The translations under genes were made by a program, and so were the position numbers. Source: Candidatus Poribacteria bacterium (GTDB lineage Bacteria > Poribacteria > WGA-4E > WGA-3G). From it: 59,618 nt of DNA. Below the pieces are notes generated by a model. The model ran no database searches. It was not told where the DNA came from and was given only the letters and a program-made list of their open reading frames with translations. The stretch is taken from contig JAPPFM010000034.1 in assembly GCA_028821605.1 (NCBI GenBank), forward strand, positions 1 through 59,618, given 5' to 3'. The number at the start of each line of letters is the position of its first letter. Within the stretch, counting starts at the first letter, position 1. This document shows positions 9,856-17,029 of this stretch, piece after piece.

Positions 9856-10099
9856 GAAAACTATACATCGTTGCCTTAAAGGGGAGAATACGTACACGTG
9901 TGCGGTCTTCAGTGATAGTAGGGAACGCCCCCTTTCTATTAGTCCTTCAAGTTTGACTTTAAGGGTAGATTCGTAGTCGTGCGATTTATCGCACGTCCGA
10001 AGGAAACCAGCAACGGACAATAAATAGTTTCCCTACTACAAACGGGACCCCTCATAAACTCAACCTTGAAGGGCTACTGGAGACTTCCGTTATGAATGT
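9856..10099. other. Intergenic region with a dispersed palindrome
   Basis: No gene is seen in this region of about 240 bp between the converging sulfatase and small-protein genes. It contains the palindrome CGTGCGAT-TT-ATCGCACG (9978-9995) within a longer string, GTAGTCGTGCGATT, that is repeated at 59103-59124. Confidence 0.5.
9973..9995. repeat. Dispersed palindromic repeat, GTAGTCGTGCGAT family, copy 1
   Basis: A perfect 8-bp stem, CGTGCGAT/ATCGCACG, with a 2-nt centre. The same string with one or two changes occurs at 59103-59124 in another intergenic region. It is probably a small REP-like or MITE-like element. Confidence 0.6.
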
Positions 10100-10372: not shown

Positions 10373-10580
10373 CTACGGGGTACAGGGAAATCTATGTTTA
10401 AACATCCGAAACTTATTAGGTGGCAACTTGGGTTATATTAAGCCAATTTTGATAATTATCAAGTTAAATAGTAGTAAAGTCTGTATCTGACTGTTAAATT
10501 ATACGATATTTTCAGGGAAAAAGCAATTATGTCCATAAAATTGCTAATTTTCTTTGGAAAATATATGATACTTCAGAATT
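10373..10580. other. AT-rich intergenic stretch
   Basis: About 200 bp of AT-rich sequence upstream of the small protein gene and downstream of the decayed LRR/Big1 gene. No ORF, RNA or repeat was recognised. Confidence 0.4.
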
Positions 10581-11675
10581 TTACCCAGACTTTAATCTGT
10601 GGTTTTCACATCTGCCCACTTCCAAAGCAACTTGCCAGTAGCAGACAGATGTCCCCGCAAAACTGATCTGACTACTCCCCGCTTCAGTAGTTACCATCGC
10701 CTCAGAATAGCCTGGCGTGCCGAGACTGGTTTCAGGTGAGGCATCTGGGTCATACCCCAACCCCGCTTGATAGGTGCTCCCTGTGGCGGGTTCAGAAAAT
10801 ATTATTGTGAGGTTAAAGTCACCGGTGGGTGGCGTTTCGGGGTAGTCTTCAAACGTTACATGCAGTCCAGCAGGGATCGGTGCCTCGCGGTCTGCTGTTG
10901 CCGTGAAACTTATCCGGAGTTCTGGATGCGTTGGTCCATTGGTGTGTTGTGGCTGGAACAACGGTTTCCGCTGTGTGCACATCCCCGTGACCGCCAAGTG
11001 TAATGCTGACCCGTGTCAATCCATCGTTCCTTGTAACAGTATTCCTCACAGTTTCGGTGCCATCGGGTGCTGTAATCCTCCATGTGACAGGCACCCCCTG
11101 AATTTCCTGTTCACCGCGTACCCGTTGAGGAAATTCGTAGATGCTCTCACCACAAATGTGTGTCTTGTCCCAGGTCTCCCTAAGTGATTTTCCGCAGATT
11201 CGCCCTCAAACCCAAACATGAAGGACGAATACCGGGTATCCGTAATACCAGCCGTTATGAGGGCTGGAATATCTGTGTAGAGAGAGGCGTAGTCGAGGTT
11301 ATAGTTCCACTTCAGATCAATTATCGTTGTGACTTTTCCTGCCTGCTGGAGCCCTATCAAAGGCGTAATATCCGTCAACAACCAGCCTCTCTGAGTGCCA
11401 GTTCTACCGGAGTGCGTCAGGAGACGCAGATCCAGATTCCGCAACGCAGCCCCTGCCGGTAAATCATCTAACACCGATAGATCTGAGATTGGAGTCCCTA
11501 AAAGACTTAGGTCGGTCAGCATTGATAAAGTGGGTAGAACCTCTGATAGCGTCTCGTGAGTGATGTCGGTAGCATTCAGTGCTAACGCTTTTGTTAGTTT
11601 CGCCAGGTCTGATATATCCGTCAATGGATGTGAAATATTTATTCGATAGGTCTTCCGAAAATAGGGGCGAATCAC
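10581..11675 (-). pseudogene. Decayed LRR plus Big1-type surface-protein gene
   Basis: Three minus-strand reading frames are pieces of one gene. The 5' piece (11675 down to about 11150) encodes leucine-rich-repeat-like units such as LSMLTDLSLLGTPISDLSVL and ends near GTRHTFVV. The frame then shifts to one reading EIQGVPVTWRITAPDGTET and VSITLGGHGDVHTAETVV, a bacterial Ig-like Big1 pattern. It shifts again near 10920 to PELRISFTATADREAP and a C-terminal beta-rich part ending at 10581. At least two frameshifts are therefore needed. The N-terminus is also missing: no signal peptide or ribosome site lies upstream of 11675. Intact members would be secreted adhesion-like proteins. Reading the pieces as separate genes would be wrong. 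Confidence 0.7.
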
Positions 11676-12002
11676 AAAAAGTTTTATTGGGATATTTGTA
11701 TGTTTTTATTTAGATTTTAAAAATATGTCTTCACATAACTTGTGCTTAAACCCTAATGGCTATTGACTTTATGTCAATTTAAAATTTGACTAAAAATGAG
11801 ATTTTTGATAATATACAACATTAATTTATGTGAAAATATGAAGTTTGTGAACACCTCATAACGGGTATTTTTCAGCGTGAGTTTTCTACAGAATTTTTTA
11901 GACCCTATCCGCATCTGGCATTTTATATTCAACTCACGGGATAAGAAAGTCATTCATTAAGGTCAGGGATTTCCATTACTGTGAAGTCGCGTCTTATACT
12001 GT
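11676..12002. other. AT-rich intergenic region with a promoter-like site
   Basis: No gene seen. It holds the small inverted repeat ATTGAC-TTTAT-GTCAAT (about 11762-11778) just upstream of a promoter-like pair. The promoter faces the repeats and the large primase-like gene. Confidence 0.4.
11786..11814 (+). promoter_or_regulatory. Sigma70-like promoter facing the primase-like gene
   Basis: TTGACT (11786-11791) and TAATAT (11809-11814) have 17-bp spacing. The inverted repeat ATTGAC/GTCAAT overlaps the upstream side and could be an operator. The next gene starts about 415 bp away, so the assignment is uncertain. Confidence 0.4.
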
Positions 12003-12099
12003 CACAGACTAACAGTCTATGCTACAAAGATGCCACAGACTAACAGCCTATGCTACAAAGAGCCACAGGAAACCAACGGTCTCCTATGCTACAAAGATG
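12003..12099. repeat. Three imperfect tandem repeats (about 31-36 bp)
   Basis: Units begin with CACAGACTAACAG (12003 and 12034) or the diverged CACAGGAAACCAACG (12064), and all contain CTATGCTACAAAGA. They abut directly, without spacers, so this is not a CRISPR array. Function unknown. Confidence 0.7.
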
Positions 12100-12114
12100 G
12101 CAATTTAGGTTACT

Positions 12115-12208
12115 TAGGACTTAGGCAATTTCTCTACGGAGTCTTACGTATCATATGCAGCTGGCGAGGTTTGAAACCTCGCCAGCGAGGGGGTTTGCGT
12201 AAGTCCTA
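12115..12208. mobile_element. 94-bp MITE-like element with terminal inverted repeats
   Basis: The left end TAGGACTTAGGCAA and the right end (read on the minus strand) TAGGACTTACGCAA form imperfect terminal inverted repeats with TA at both tips. This is the TA-target pattern of IS630/Tc1-mariner-related MITEs. Inside lies a perfect 12-bp palindrome, CTGGCGAGGTTT-G-AAACCTCGCCAG (12161-12185). A matching end, AATAGGACTTACGCAAA, occurs at 24474-24490. The element ends 22 bp before the start codon of the primase-like gene. Confidence 0.55.
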
Positions 12209-12229
12209 TTACTGTAAGGAAGTGTGTCG

Positions 12230-15200
12230 ATGACAACCAATATCTTGCAAGATATAATTGCACGCTGCCACCGCCGGCACGAGAAACCACTCAAGCAAAA
12301 GAAGACGACCTCAACACCTCGGCTTTACAAGGGGCTTCCATACCATTTCACAGCCTATTGTGCGCACAGATACCCTGTGCTGCTTCAAGACTTGGAGGCA
12401 GCAGACATTTCCTTTATGCCGATTGGGCAAGCCCCTGGAACCGACCGTCCGCCGCGTCATTTTGGAGGGGAACGGTTCTTGAAACGCCAACAAGCGACAA
12501 ACTGGGATGCCATCCGATGGCACAAGTCATGGGGGATTCAAGTGTATACGGGTATGCCCTCTGTGCGTGATGGCGCACCATGGCATGATATCGACTTTAA
12601 ATATGAAGCTATCTGTGCTGCACCTGATGTCATCCTTGCTTGTGTTCAAGCCCTGGTTGATGCCGTTGTGAATCCGTTATTGACGATGTCAAAGTCTGGT
12701 GGGCTCCGCTTTTCTTGCAGAATACCGGGGTACCTGCACCCGAACACCGAGCAGGCACGGTTGTATGTTTATAAACAGACCGCGACAGCAGAGAATCCAC
12801 ACCCCCACGACGCGTATCTTGAAATTTCCGGTGAGGAGGGATACAATTGCTGGGATGCGCGCTATGAAATTCTGCTTGGAAATCTGTTAGATCCGCCTGT
12901 AATTTCCAAAGAGATTTTCTTTGCCCCGATTGATGCACTTCGCGCTGCACTGCCCGAACCTGTTTTGCAAAACGTACAACACAAGGAGAATATTCCCGAC
13001 GCGCTATACTCTCTCGGATCGGGCAAACTTGACCTCGCTAAAGAGGCGTTTTTTAAGCGCGGGTTTTCTTATGTTAGACAAGAGGATGGATTTCACTATT
13101 GGAACCGGCGAGATAATGAGATTGACAACACAGAGATATCGTTATGGGAGAGTGAAGGTGGTGTGTGGGTTTGTGCATCTACGTCTGATACTGGGCTACC
13201 TACGGAGGCAACGCTCCTAACAGACGTTTGGAACGATACCGGCATTCTGCCGCCGATTCCTAAGACGGGGCTACCTATAGATACTAAGGTACTTGCCATT
13301 CGGGAAGGAGAATTTAGTCCATTGGCAATAAAACGTCCTTCTCCAGTGTTAGGGAAGTCGAGCACCATCGAAAAGATTGATGAACCACGAGAAGAAATTA
13401 GCGTTCAGGTGCAGCGTGCTTTTGATAGGAACGTGCGCGTTCTTGGATTTATGCCGCAGATAGCCTCAGAGAAAAACCGTGAAGTAGAATCCCTTCTGCG
13501 GAATCGTGAGGCAATCTGTTTAGGCGTGCTAAATGCTGCGCATGCTGCAGAAGCAGAACGGTTTTTTCAAAAGCGAGGTGTAGGATCGGTTGCCCGGTGG
13601 CGGGATCGGACGTATCTATGGGATCAGGTAAAAGATATTCCCATTGATGTACGCATGGCAACACCTTTTCACCGTGGAAATGTCTGCGAGGATGCTCAGC
13701 GGTGCGAAGCACTTGAGAAAAAGGGTGGGAATCCGAGTGAAATTATCTGTCCGCAGTGCCGCGTCTATACAGCGTGTAGGGAGCGCGGCTATCTATCGCA
13801 ATCCTCGGCATTACAAACGACCAAAGTACAAATAATAGAAGAGTTTCGGCTATTTTTAGACCCACACTATGAAAAAATAGTGGAACAGTTTCTTGAAGCG
13901 CGCGATGGAACACATCCACTTTGTATCGTTGATGTCACGAGAGAGAATCAACTGTTTCTTAAATGCAGACTGTCAAGAACCACATTGGAGGAGTGGGTTG
14001 TCAATTGGAAAGGCAGTGCCTTAGGAAACTTTGCGCTGGCCCTCCTGAATGCAGTGGAAATCAGAGACAAATACCATGCGAACTCCATCAAACGCCTTCG
14101 AACGGTCATACGGACGTTTGAATGGTTGGCAGAAGAAATTATCCAACAAATGTGCACCGTCAATATACAGGGCAGAGTGGTCGCACGAGGTGCTATTGAT
14201 CCAGAGACCGGACAAGAATTAGCACGTTTTACAATCGAGTTTGAGCGAGGGATTTTTGCTTATATTCCTTTGAACGCTGTGGCTGCGGACAGACTGGCGG
14301 CAGAAGGGTTGCCCTTCTTTCGACTCGACGCTTTTGTGCCTAACGAAGAGATGAGAATTTTGATGCCAATAGCGGACGCTGTCGAATTGGGTATCTTGGA
14401 TACGGCGACTGTTGAAAACATTCAGAAGTTTCCAACGGTTTGCGGGCATCCAAATTGGACGTTTTGGCATCAACTCAAGCGTTTCTTTGCACATTACACG
14501 CGGGACGCTGATGCCCCGATGCAATGGGAGGACGAAGTATTACAGTTCTGGGTGCCGCCGGTACTTCATCCGAGTGTCAGACACCTTTTGATCACCGCTC
14601 CAGCTCTCTACGGCGAGCATCTCCGTCGGACGTTTTTAGATGAAGAAACTGAGATCCTTCCTACCGAACCGATGGCATGGGTTCCTGGAAACCGAATTTT
14701 TCAGATTCGCACCGGTATCTATCCACGGAAAACAATTTTAGACATCAGTAACACTTGGGACAGTCTCGGGATGTCTGAAACGGGGCAGCACATTTTTTCA
14801 AGGATCCAATCTGAAATTGAAAGGGATCCAAATATTAAGCATGGGATTATAACCCATGTTCACGCAATTGAACAGTTGAAGGATATAGTGGAGAATGAGA
14901 ACGTCTGTTTCTTAACGAGTTTTCGAGTGGTGGACGGATTAGAAACTGCTTTTCAAGAGGCGCAGGTCATCTGGATAGTTGGCATGCCGGAAATGGGACC
15001 ACGTGCTGTTTTGGAGCGCACTCAGATCCTGTTTGGAAACGACGAGGAACCTCTTTCTTATGAAATGGAACCAGAACTCTACCGTTACAAAGACGAGCGC
15101 GTCCAGAGCGTTTATGAAAAAGAGGTCGTCCGTATATTCACAGAGATTATAGAACTGGCTCAGCTGAACCGTTTGGCAAACAAGAAAGTTATGTTGATTA

Positions 15201-15619
15201 CGGGGTTCCGAATTCCTGAGATCACCGATAGACCCGAAACGCTCCTTTTTGACTTGGAAGATTTGGATGTCGCCGATGGGTTAGACAAACTGGCGGAAGT
15301 GATAACGATACGTCAAGGATTTGAGGCGGAACGCGACAATCTGACGGTTGAATCCAGCAGAAAAGAGGTAGAACGGATTTTGGGATGTTCCCAAAGGCAG
15401 GCGAACCGAGTGTTGCAAAGGATGAGAGGTGGGAGGCCACGTGTCACTTTCCGCGAGCAAATTCTCGCACTTCTCGCCGATGGCGAGAAAAAAACGCCGG
15501 AATTCGCGGCAGCGATTCAAGGACACCCAAAAGCAGTAAATACAGAACTCACGCGCCTTGTGGGGCTCGGTGAAATTGTAAAGGTTCGACGAGGTGTATA
15601 TAGACTTCCAAAGCCTTAG
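12230..15619 (+). CDS. Large protein with primase-polymerase-like N-terminus, Cys cluster and C-terminal winged helix
   Basis: A 1129-aa protein. The ATG at 12230 is preferred over GTG 12224 because AAGGAAG lies 7 bp upstream. Residues about 60-215 resemble archaeo-eukaryotic primase/PrimPol domains: a D-x-D metal motif (WHDIDFK, D120/D122), SKSGGLR (154-160) at the position of the family's SGGxH, and LEISGEEGY with E198 as third acidic residue. The usual His is Arg160. A cluster of six cysteines (CEDAQRC ... CPQC ... AC, about 485-520) could bind zinc or Fe-S. The middle and C-terminal part (about 780-1000) looks like a degenerate helicase, with no Walker A GxxxxGK[ST] visible. The last 65 residues look like a winged helix (KTPEFAAAIQGHPKAVNTEL). 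It could be a replication protein of an integrated element. Function inferred; no partner gene is adjacent. Confidence 0.65.
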   Translation: MTTNILQDIIARCHRRHEKPLKQKKTTSTPRLYKGLPYHFTAYCAHRYPVLLQDLEAADISFMPIGQAPGTDRPPRHFGGERFLKRQQATNWDAIRWHKSWGIQVYTGMPSVRDGAPWHDIDFKYEAICAAPDVILACVQALVDAVVNPLLTMSKSGGLRFSCRIPGYLHPNTEQARLYVYKQTATAENPHPHDAYLEISGEEGYNCWDARYEILLGNLLDPPVISKEIFFAPIDALRAALPEPVLQNVQHKENIPDALYSLGSGKLDLAKEAFFKRGFSYVRQEDGFHYWNRRDNEIDNTEISLWESEGGVWVCASTSDTGLPTEATLLTDVWNDTGILPPIPKTGLPIDTKVLAIREGEFSPLAIKRPSPVLGKSSTIEKIDEPREEISVQVQRAFDRNVRVLGFMPQIASEKNREVESLLRNREAICLGVLNAAHAAEAERFFQKRGVGSVARWRDRTYLWDQVKDIPIDVRMATPFHRGNVCEDAQRCEALEKKGGNPSEIICPQCRVYTACRERGYLSQSSALQTTKVQIIEEFRLFLDPHYEKIVEQFLEARDGTHPLCIVDVTRENQLFLKCRLSRTTLEEWVVNWKGSALGNFALALLNAVEIRDKYHANSIKRLRTVIRTFEWLAEEIIQQMCTVNIQGRVVARGAIDPETGQELARFTIEFERGIFAYIPLNAVAADRLAAEGLPFFRLDAFVPNEEMRILMPIADAVELGILDTATVENIQKFPTVCGHPNWTFWHQLKRFFAHYTRDADAPMQWEDEVLQFWVPPVLHPSVRHLLITAPALYGEHLRRTFLDEETEILPTEPMAWVPGNRIFQIRTGIYPRKTILDISNTWDSLGMSETGQHIFSRIQSEIERDPNIKHGIITHVHAIEQLKDIVENENVCFLTSFRVVDGLETAFQEAQVIWIVGMPEMGPRAVLERTQILFGNDEEPLSYEMEPELYRYKDERVQSVYEKEVVRIFTEIIELAQLNRLANKKVMLITGFRIPEITDRPETLLFDLEDLDVADGLDKLAEVITIRQGFEAERDNLTVESSRKEVERILGCSQRQANRVLQRMRGGRPRVTFREQILALLADGEKKTPEFAAAIQGHPKAVNTELTRLVGLGEIVKVRRGVYRLPKP

Positions 15620-15907: not shown

Positions 15908-17029
15908 ATGAAAACAGAAAAATATGAGTTCTATCATCAATCTAACTTGATACAGATTGGTAACCTGATTGACGATTTGCATAGTGTGCATGTTCACCTC
16001 TTGAAGTTGCAGAGACGCTATTATCGTATCTATGGTAAATATGCGTCTTTTGGTCGGATATGTAATCATATCACGAGTTTGAAACAGCGGACGAAACAGC
16101 ATTGGAATCACTTGCCGAGTCAGGTCATCCAGCAAGTCGCAAAGCGTATCCACTTAGGATACGAAACCTTTTTTGATAACATTAAGGACCGAAAAGCAGG
16201 TAAAACGAAACGCAAAGTCGGCAGACCAAAGATAAAACCACTCCACAAATACAACTCCTTAACGTTCACACAAGCGGGTTTTAAGATAGAAGGTAACCGC
16301 CTAACAATCAATTGTATCAAAAAGTCTTTCACCTTTTGGAAGCACCGAGACTGGACCGGGCGTATCAAAACAGTAACAATCAAACGTGATAATGTAGGCG
16401 ACTACTATCTATACCTGAGTTGTGAGGATTGCAAACCTTCCGAGAAATTCCCTTTGACCGGTAATGTGGCAGGGGCAGATTTCGGAATGAAAACATTTCT
16501 CACCCTTTCAGATGGCACTGCAATCGTATCTCCTGAATTCTATAAGCAAACTCTCAATGAAATTTGTTCTGCGAACAAGGCACTTTCACGCAAGCAATAT
16601 CTCTCTAATGGCTGGTATCGTGCCAAGCGTCACCTCTGTCGTGTTCATGAGAAGATTGCCAATCAGAGACGCGATTGGTTCTTCAAATTGGCACTTCGTC
16701 TTGTGCGAAAATACGATAGAATTTCCATTGAAACCCTGAACCTTGAGGGTATGAAACGCCTTTGGGGACGCAAAGTTTCTGACCTCGCTTTTGGTGAATT
16801 TGTCTTGATACTCCAGTGGACATGTGCCAAATATGGTAAAACATTGTTGAAAGCGGGACGTTGGACTGCCACAACAAAACCTTGTCATTGCTGTGGGCAT
16901 CACAACGAAAATCTAACGCTTTCTGATAGGCAGTGGACATGTCTCGAATGTGGATTTCCACACGATAGAGACGTAAACGCTGCGATAAACATTTTGCGGG
17001 TTGGGGTACCCTGGACCGAAACCAGATAA
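15908..17029 (+). CDS. tnpB: TnpB RNA-guided nuclease (IS605 accessory protein)
   Basis: A 373-aa TnpB, full length. The split RuvC nuclease is intact: D191 in GADFGMKTF, E275 in ISIETLNLEGM, and the third acidic residue in HDRDVNAAINI (D353/D355). A four-Cys zinc finger, C326-x2-C329 ... C345-x2-C348, lies between them. The basic N-terminal half (KTKRKVGRPKIK) would bind the guide RNA and target-adjacent motif. TnpB proteins cleave DNA guided by an omega RNA from the element's right end and so favour retention of the element. No TnpA is nearby. It is preceded by a strong promoter and a structured leader. Confidence 0.93.
   Translation: MKTEKYEFYHQSNLIQIGNLIDDLHSVHVHLLKLQRRYYRIYGKYASFGRICNHITSLKQRTKQHWNHLPSQVIQQVAKRIHLGYETFFDNIKDRKAGKTKRKVGRPKIKPLHKYNSLTFTQAGFKIEGNRLTINCIKKSFTFWKHRDWTGRIKTVTIKRDNVGDYYLYLSCEDCKPSEKFPLTGNVAGADFGMKTFLTLSDGTAIVSPEFYKQTLNEICSANKALSRKQYLSNGWYRAKRHLCRVHEKIANQRRDWFFKLALRLVRKYDRISIETLNLEGMKRLWGRKVSDLAFGEFVLILQWTCAKYGKTLLKAGRWTATTKPCHCCGHHNENLTLSDRQWTCLECGFPHDRDVNAAINILRVGVPWTETR

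Follow-up and report, generated by a model that had tools for sequence, protein, structure and literature searches.

A multicopy gene family of Poribacteria predicted to encode an archaeo-eukaryotic primase domain fused to an inactivated XPD/DinG-type helicase

In bacteria, primases of the archaeo-eukaryotic primase (AEP) superfamily are reported to be nearly exclusively genes of mobile elements, where they replicate their element (PMC5862659), and a mobile-element AEP fused to a helicase is an already known kind of protein. The closest described examples are pRN1 ORF904 and the PrimPol of phage NrS-1, which belong to the "PrimPol proper" AEPs of the Prim-Pol clade (PMC5862659). Here we analyze a gene encoding 1129 amino acids on contig JAPPFM010000034.1 of a Candidatus Poribacteria bacterium (GenBank assembly GCA_028821605.1); the whole stretch of 59,618 nucleotides analyzed is referred to as the window. 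The window protein resembles pRN1 ORF904 and NrS-1 PrimPol in its predicted AEP fold, in AEP motifs I and III, in the fusion to helicase and DNA-binding domains, and in its apparent mobile-element ancestry. Unlike them, it has Arg where motif II normally has His, an XPD/DinG-like partner with Fe-S (iron-sulfur)-type cysteines, no match to the Pfam Prim-Pol profile, and lost ATPase motifs.

The helicase part resembles the XPD/DinG Fe-S superfamily 2 helicases in its two-lobed fold and in the placement of a Cys cluster between the positions of Walker A and Walker B, but the window copy has lost both Walker motifs and is fused to an AEP. AddB, which has an Fe-S site, retains a dead helicase lobe for recognizing DNA. 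A published account (PMC4824097) describes this inactivated domain as serving Chi recognition. RecC and AddB are comparable in function only, as dead helicase lobes retained to recognize DNA; unlike the window protein they belong to superfamily 1, act in a nuclease complex, and have no AEP. None of the papers searched, a set lacking most subscription journals, described an XPD/DinG-type partner of an AEP, motor loss under purifying selection, or chromosomal amplification in Poribacteria. It seems that the AEP escaped its element, dropped the ATPase that replication would require, and grew into one of the larger conserved gene families in this lineage, a large family that carries no Pfam, NCBIfam, or PHROG name.

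Domain architecture and predicted fold

The open reading frame (ORF) stays open across all 1129 residues, and an alternative GTG start at 12224 would add two residues. Searches of the window protein against Pfam, NCBIfam, PHROGs, and PDB sequences returned only a weak match to the C-terminal winged helix or chance matches. PF09250 (Prim-Pol) did not match the protein up to an E value of 10, and PF08800 (BT4734-like AEP) did not match it either. None of the PADLOC defense models gave a match spanning the protein; the AbiEi winged helix alone was detected at E 0.003. No relative was found in the phage collection, the plasmid collection, or the IMG/VR viral contigs searched.

A structure model of the whole protein had a mean pLDDT (predicted local distance difference test score) of 78.8 and a pTM (predicted template modeling score) of 0.73. 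A separate model of residues 1-385, for which 106 relatives were used, had a core pLDDT above 90. In structure comparisons of the model, residues 27-246 matched pRN1 PrimPol (PDB 1rni) with a Z-score of 11.5 over 174 residues and a root mean square deviation of 3.4. The N-terminal model matched phage NrS-1 PrimPol (PDB 6a9w) with a Z-score of 8.1 and the LigD/PriS AEPs more weakly (Z 4-5). Foldseek alone gave no significant match in this half (E 0.009), so the conserved order of motifs is needed as a second support beside the Z-scores. The initial annotation, made from the DNA letters, had proposed WHDIDFK, SKSGGLR, and LEISGEEGY in AEP order; these are present, and Asp-120/Asp-122, Arg-160, and Glu-198 are conserved across relatives. 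It had named an N-terminus without the AEP RNA recognition motif-like core or the acidic triad as grounds for abandoning the assignment, and the model gave the two PrimPol matches above instead.

In a first alignment of 74 sequences, Asp-120 and Arg-160 were invariant and Glu-198 was kept in 72. A larger set gave Asp-120 in 110 of 111 copies, an acidic residue at position 122 in 81 of 111, and Glu-198 in 106 of 115; the remaining copies at position 122, about a quarter, have His, Asn, Thr, Tyr, Val, Ala, or Gln. The substitution of Arg for the motif II His is real but is no peculiarity of the window gene, because Arg-160 is invariant in the clade and already present in relatives with intact Walker motifs such as that of locus L156. 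Family-specific replacement of this His is known, and Kazlauskas et al. (PMC5862659) report Arg or Lys at this position only in DR0530-like AEPs, phage primases such as Burkholderia phage AH2 gp78. The window protein shares this feature with them, but AH2 gp78 carries PriCT-2 and DUF5906 rather than XPD. Membership in the DR0530-like family was unsupported by profile comparison, with an hhalign probability of 0.3% against AH2 gp78, the one member compared.

The region described at the outset as degenerate and helicase-like has an XPD/DinG-type fold in the model, with Z-scores of 14.8 and 14.2 for residues 387-1023 against XPD structures 2vl7 and 4a15 and of 11.1 against DinG (6fws). The Cys cluster comprises five residues (Cys-486, -492, -507, -510, and -516), not six as first counted. 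All except Cys-492 are near-invariant in full-length members, and the four (C-x20-C-x2-C-x5-C) lie between the positions of motifs I and II, as in the XPD/DinG Fe-S helicases. The cluster is kept in full-length copies with or without Walker motifs, and the Cys region is missing from most copies of the ~990-residue and all of the ~790-residue length class. The predicted C-terminal winged helix is present, with an AbiEi_4-type match (PF13338, E 6.8e-4) that falls below the cut-off in the window protein; matches in relatives L089 and L066 lie above it.

Of the features that define the AEP superfamily, the fold, motif I (D-h-D/E), and the motif III acid are thus present and motif II (s-x-H) is absent, with Arg-160 in its place. 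Of those that define XPD/DinG, the two-lobed superfamily 2 fold and the four Cys residues are present and Walker A and Walker B are absent. Computation shows the window protein to comprise a predicted AEP primase domain, an XPD/DinG-type Fe-S helicase fold to which it is fused, and then helix-turn-helix (HTH)/winged-helix DNA-binding domains. We consider this identity, taken together with the decay of the motor, to be very probable.

Decay of the ATPase motifs, selection, and ancestry

The window copy reads IASEKNRE at Walker A and IVDVTREN at Walker B. The absence of Walker A noted initially is therefore borne out, and Walker B is destroyed as well. A minority of the family keeps Walker A (IAETGAGKS), and most of these members keep Walker B (CIIDE) too. 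Pattern matching over the 109 rows of the tree found 14 with both motifs, 2 with Walker A only, 15 with Walker B only, and 78 with neither. Every row of the clade that contains the window protein (~40 sequences) is without both motifs, and this motif-dead clade has itself multiplied. On a quick tree the most parsimonious history of Walker A required six changes, whose direction cannot be inferred from the tree, and an independent-pairs test of whether the two Walker motifs were lost together was not significant.

Of 85 genomes from the phylum, 50 contain family members; these lie in genera g1 and g3 of a single Poribacteria family, with one weak distant match in addition. Copies were counted by six-frame searches that scored a limited number of candidates per genome, so that the counts are lower bounds; some complete genomes have family copies at nine or more places, often in tandem, and tandem arrays reach four copies (L054/L083 and L055/L084). 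The gene, first described as standing alone, does so only locally, as the same genome holds two further copies (C56:112868-116248 and a shortened 960-residue form at C59:32703-35546). Three length classes were seen: ~1130 residues; ~950-1050 residues, mostly without the Cys region; and ~790 residues, without most of the first helicase lobe.

Ratios of nonsynonymous to synonymous substitution (dN/dS) were calculated by the Nei-Gojobori method for the window gene and its nearest copies. They were 0.22-0.30 over the ORF, 0.17-0.31 for the AEP domain, 0.12-0.23 for the Cys region (residues 451-560), and 0.21-0.38 for the winged helix. The surroundings of the former P-loop (residues 385-450) gave 0.45-0.82, indicating locally relaxed constraint. 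Nearly all pairs tested gave 0.15-0.30 overall, the outlier being L074/L068 at 0.53. A second lineage is represented by a ~1008-residue orthologue whose neighbors in each of five genomes are argG-type and MoxR-type genes (L158, L160, L161, L163, and L164). These argG-linked orthologues have Arg or Lys at position 198 and no Walker A or Walker B, leaving both active sites mutated, and yet their dN/dS was 0.15-0.21 for the whole ORF and 0.07-0.16 for the winged helix. The same orthologue may be present in other genomes of the genus, which gave matches of comparable length.

The conservation of the ORF, the Cys cluster, the AEP domain, and the C-terminal DNA-binding domains while the P-loop drifts argues strongly that selection maintains the family as a non-motor protein. 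What selection retains in the protein is therefore not ATP-driven unwinding, and in the argG-linked lineage it is probably not nucleotide addition either. Retention of the Cys cluster in a dead helicase lets the role of Fe-S in DNA binding, apart from unwinding, be tested.

Rare relatives with intact motifs point to the origin of the family. Locus L156 (genome G054) encodes a 1047-residue homologue with TDLDF, SGGLRYSCR, LYLEIFGDKG, a Walker A motif PAQTGKTT, a Walker B motif AIDEPNPAD, and the same Cys spacing. It aligned with the window family over 886 columns (hhalign E 1.8e-45), and its AEP domain was 38% identical to that of the window protein (BLAST E 1.7e-39). Walker A and Walker B are both present in L156, L142, and L157. 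The L118/L115 protein (G018) has a BT4734-like N-terminus (PF08800, 3e-12) and is homologous to the window family in the helicase part only (E 2e-12). These Poribacteria AEP-XPD and BT4734-XPD primase-helicases (L156, L142, and L118) share with the window protein the architecture, the Cys spacing, and a GYLSQ motif but differ from it in their intact Walker motifs. Unlike the window gene, L157 and L118 adjoin Rep_3 plasmid initiators. The relatives with intact Walker motifs thus resemble primase-helicases that replicate integrated plasmid-like elements, and a protein of this kind, accompanied by a Rep_3 initiator, would have been the ancestor of the family, as judged from two loci. L156 also lies near a Dam-type methylase gene, and two further loci, retrieved as partial matches (L165 and L169), contain tyrosine recombinases. 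In another family of the order, genome G071 encodes proteins whose helicase part is weakly similar to that of the window family (L166:1-3114 and L117:264-2690). The N-terminus of L166 is of the DUF3854/Toprim type, suggesting that this type of helicase may pair with unrelated primases.

Candidate functions of the non-motor protein

Amplification of a motor-dead protein suggests a new, non-motor job. The best overall explanation, to which we assign a probability of roughly 0.45, is that the protein is a non-motor relic of a replication primase-helicase with a role as a decoy. The winged helices, the helicase channel, and the primase face would still bind DNA of related invading elements, either the origin or single strands. 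Having lost its ATP-binding motifs, the bound protein could not unwind this DNA and would occupy or mis-prime the replication start; as a dominant-negative decoy in replication, it would keep related mobile elements in check. There is a precedent for restriction of incoming DNA by a PrimPol borne on a mobile genetic element, the Thermus Ppol, which is dispensable for replication of its integrative and conjugative element (PMC7693054). The decoy role against related mobile elements is, taken by itself, a weak inference and possible rather than probable. A further step, in which the nine or more divergent, promoter-equipped copies of some genomes would form a chromosomal immunity repertoire of replication decoys against plasmid-like elements or phages, is doubtful. 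If true, the decoy idea would describe a distinct form of anti-element immunity.

Several observations weigh against a decoy. Mutual exclusion of intact elements and inactive copies, which would have favored immunity, was not seen, as both occur in G054, G057, and G026. The AEP acids are mostly kept, so that activity of the primase half may persist. The first neighbors of the copies examined look like ordinary chromosomal genes. A few neighbors matched defense-library models, the top families listed being mostly generic SNF2/TnpB-type or methyltransferase models, and no defense island was shown. The leader common to the copies could equally serve a regulator. The support for this account is computational, and we present it as a proposal on that footing.

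A first alternative is that the AEP half has remained active as a primase-polymerase in host DNA repair or damage tolerance, with the dead helicase acting only as a DNA-binding scaffold. The near-invariance of Asp-120, the frequency of Asp/Glu at position 122 and of Glu-198, and the strong purifying selection on the AEP domain in pairs that include the window gene are all consistent with it, and unwinding could come from other host helicases. However, the second metal ligand is missing in about a quarter of copies, the argG-linked orthologues are conserved despite Arg or Lys at position 198, and nine or more dispersed copies are more than a single-copy repair gene should require. We regard this role as rather unlikely.

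Another alternative is a regulator, transcriptional or chromosomal, that binds DNA and no longer catalyzes anything; the low dN/dS of the winged helix in the argG-linked orthologues, where both active sites are lost, is consistent with it. The HTH/winged-helix end with its AbiEi_4-type match, the promoter common to the copies, and the small divergent ORF upstream of several of them point the same way. A regulator would, however, hardly need the entire conserved scaffold of ~1000 residues, and no conserved target gene was found beside the copies. A regulatory role is unlikely; if true, it would make this a dead helicase-primase turned DNA reader, as in RecC/AddB.

It is improbable that the family is functionless, decaying debris of integrated mobile elements, although in-frame stops in eleven listed copies, common fragments and shortened classes, and variable presence at one site fit such a view. 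The remaining copies are open, mostly at the full length of ~1130 residues, dN/dS is low in nearly every pair tested, an orthologue holds one chromosomal place on the argG side in five genomes, and the motif-dead clade has itself multiplied. On this sequence evidence we take the family to be a selected pseudo-enzyme rather than debris. Just as improbable is a mobile unit of gene plus leader spreading by its own primase along an unspecified route, which would account for the tandem arrays, for occupied and empty orthologous sites, and for a leader and ORF conserved at non-orthologous places but for which the window copy has no terminal repeats, the one site read has no target duplication, no transposase or recombinase recurs among the neighbors, and ordinary duplication and recombination suffice.

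Leader, insertion site, and neighboring sequences

The features of the locus are collected in Table 1. The leader and the ORF are homologous between non-orthologous places, and downstream homology usually stops near the stop codon. A TTGAC...GATAAT pair occurred within 500 nucleotides upstream of 21 of 71 copies, against 0.35 expected from shuffles (mononucleotide shuffles only). No Rfam family was found between window positions 9900 and 17300.

Table 1. Features of the family gene and its upstream region in the window
Feature	Position	Strand	Basis
Family gene, 1129 residues: AEP primase domain, inactivated XPD/DinG-type Fe-S helicase, C-terminal HTH/winged helix (predicted)	12230..15619	+	ORF; dN/dS 0.22-0.30 vs nearest copies
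AEP (PrimPol-type) domain, residues 27-246	12308..12967	+	Structure model, pRN1 PrimPol Z 11.5; conservation
AEP motif I, D120/D122 (within WHDIDFK)	12587-12595	+	Sequence and conservation
AEP motif II, SGGLRFSCR with R160	12695-12721	+	Sequence and conservation
AEP motif III, E198 (within LEISGEEGY)	12821-12823	+	Sequence and conservation
XPD/DinG-like helicase region, residues 387-1023	13388..15298	+	Model; XPD chains Z 12-14.8, DinG Z 11.1; Foldseek E 9.7e-11
Walker A remnant, residues 403-420, RVLGFMPQIASEKNREVE	13436..13489	+	Intact relatives have IAETGAGKS or PAQTGKTT; constraint locally relaxed
Cys cluster, C486-x5-C492-x14-C507-x2-C510-x5-C516, candidate Fe-S (or Zn) site	13685..13777	+	Near-invariance in full-length members
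Walker B remnant, CIVDVTREN	13916..13951	+	Motif-intact members have CIIDE
C-terminal HTH and winged helix, residues 1030-1129	15317..15616	+	Secondary structure of model; PF13338 AbiEi_4 match
Conserved 5' leader, common to dispersed copies	11627..11893	+	75-86% identity to upstream regions of many copies
Promoter-like TTGACT ... GATAAT in leader	11786-11791 ... 11807-11812	+	Motif match
Second conserved leader block, split from the first by a decayed leucine-rich-repeat fragment	10423..10593	.	Similarity to upstream regions of other copies
Small divergent ORF, ~76 residues	10103..10330	-	Also divergently upstream of several other copies; no Pfam match

The genes downstream of the window site are conserved in many genomes. 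The family gene was present there in 3 of the 16 regions read (G005, G006, and G013) and in the window genome; in G020 and G017 it is absent and the flanking genes are ~20 nucleotides apart. A repeat search found no terminal (inverted) repeats around the window copy, and no target duplication was seen at the one orthologous empty site read. On these two grounds a transposon reading was set aside. The survey of recurrent neighbors revealed neither a transposase or recombinase nor a conserved target gene beside the copies.

A TnpB-like element directly follows the gene (window 15908-17029, plus strand), as initially annotated, but it is not in the orthologous loci of G013 and G006 and is thus a later local insertion. 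Related TnpB-like ORFs also lie inside or beside family arrays at a few other loci (L054, L089, and L090; cluster c10). The decayed leucine-rich-repeat (LRR)-like fragment between the two leader blocks occupies window 10581-11675 on the minus strand. At other loci, genes for secreted LRR/cadherin/dockerin proteins were more frequent upstream of and divergent from family copies than elsewhere, by counts within 6 kb at loci that are not independent: 22 upstream in opposite orientation, 8 upstream in the same orientation, 9 downstream in the same orientation, and 5 downstream in opposite orientation. Short direct repeats of ~31 nucleotides, CACAGACTAACAGTCTATGCTACAAAGA, lie just upstream of the gene (window 12000-12120), and similar sequence is found upstream of copy L031. 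A palindromic repeat, CTTACCGTT...AACGGTAAG, was observed at L216:4520-4580, L215:4280-4350, and L204:5550-5610; it follows the gene that lies upstream of the insertion site, in both occupied and empty genomes, and resembles a dispersed terminator or a repetitive extragenic palindromic-like element.

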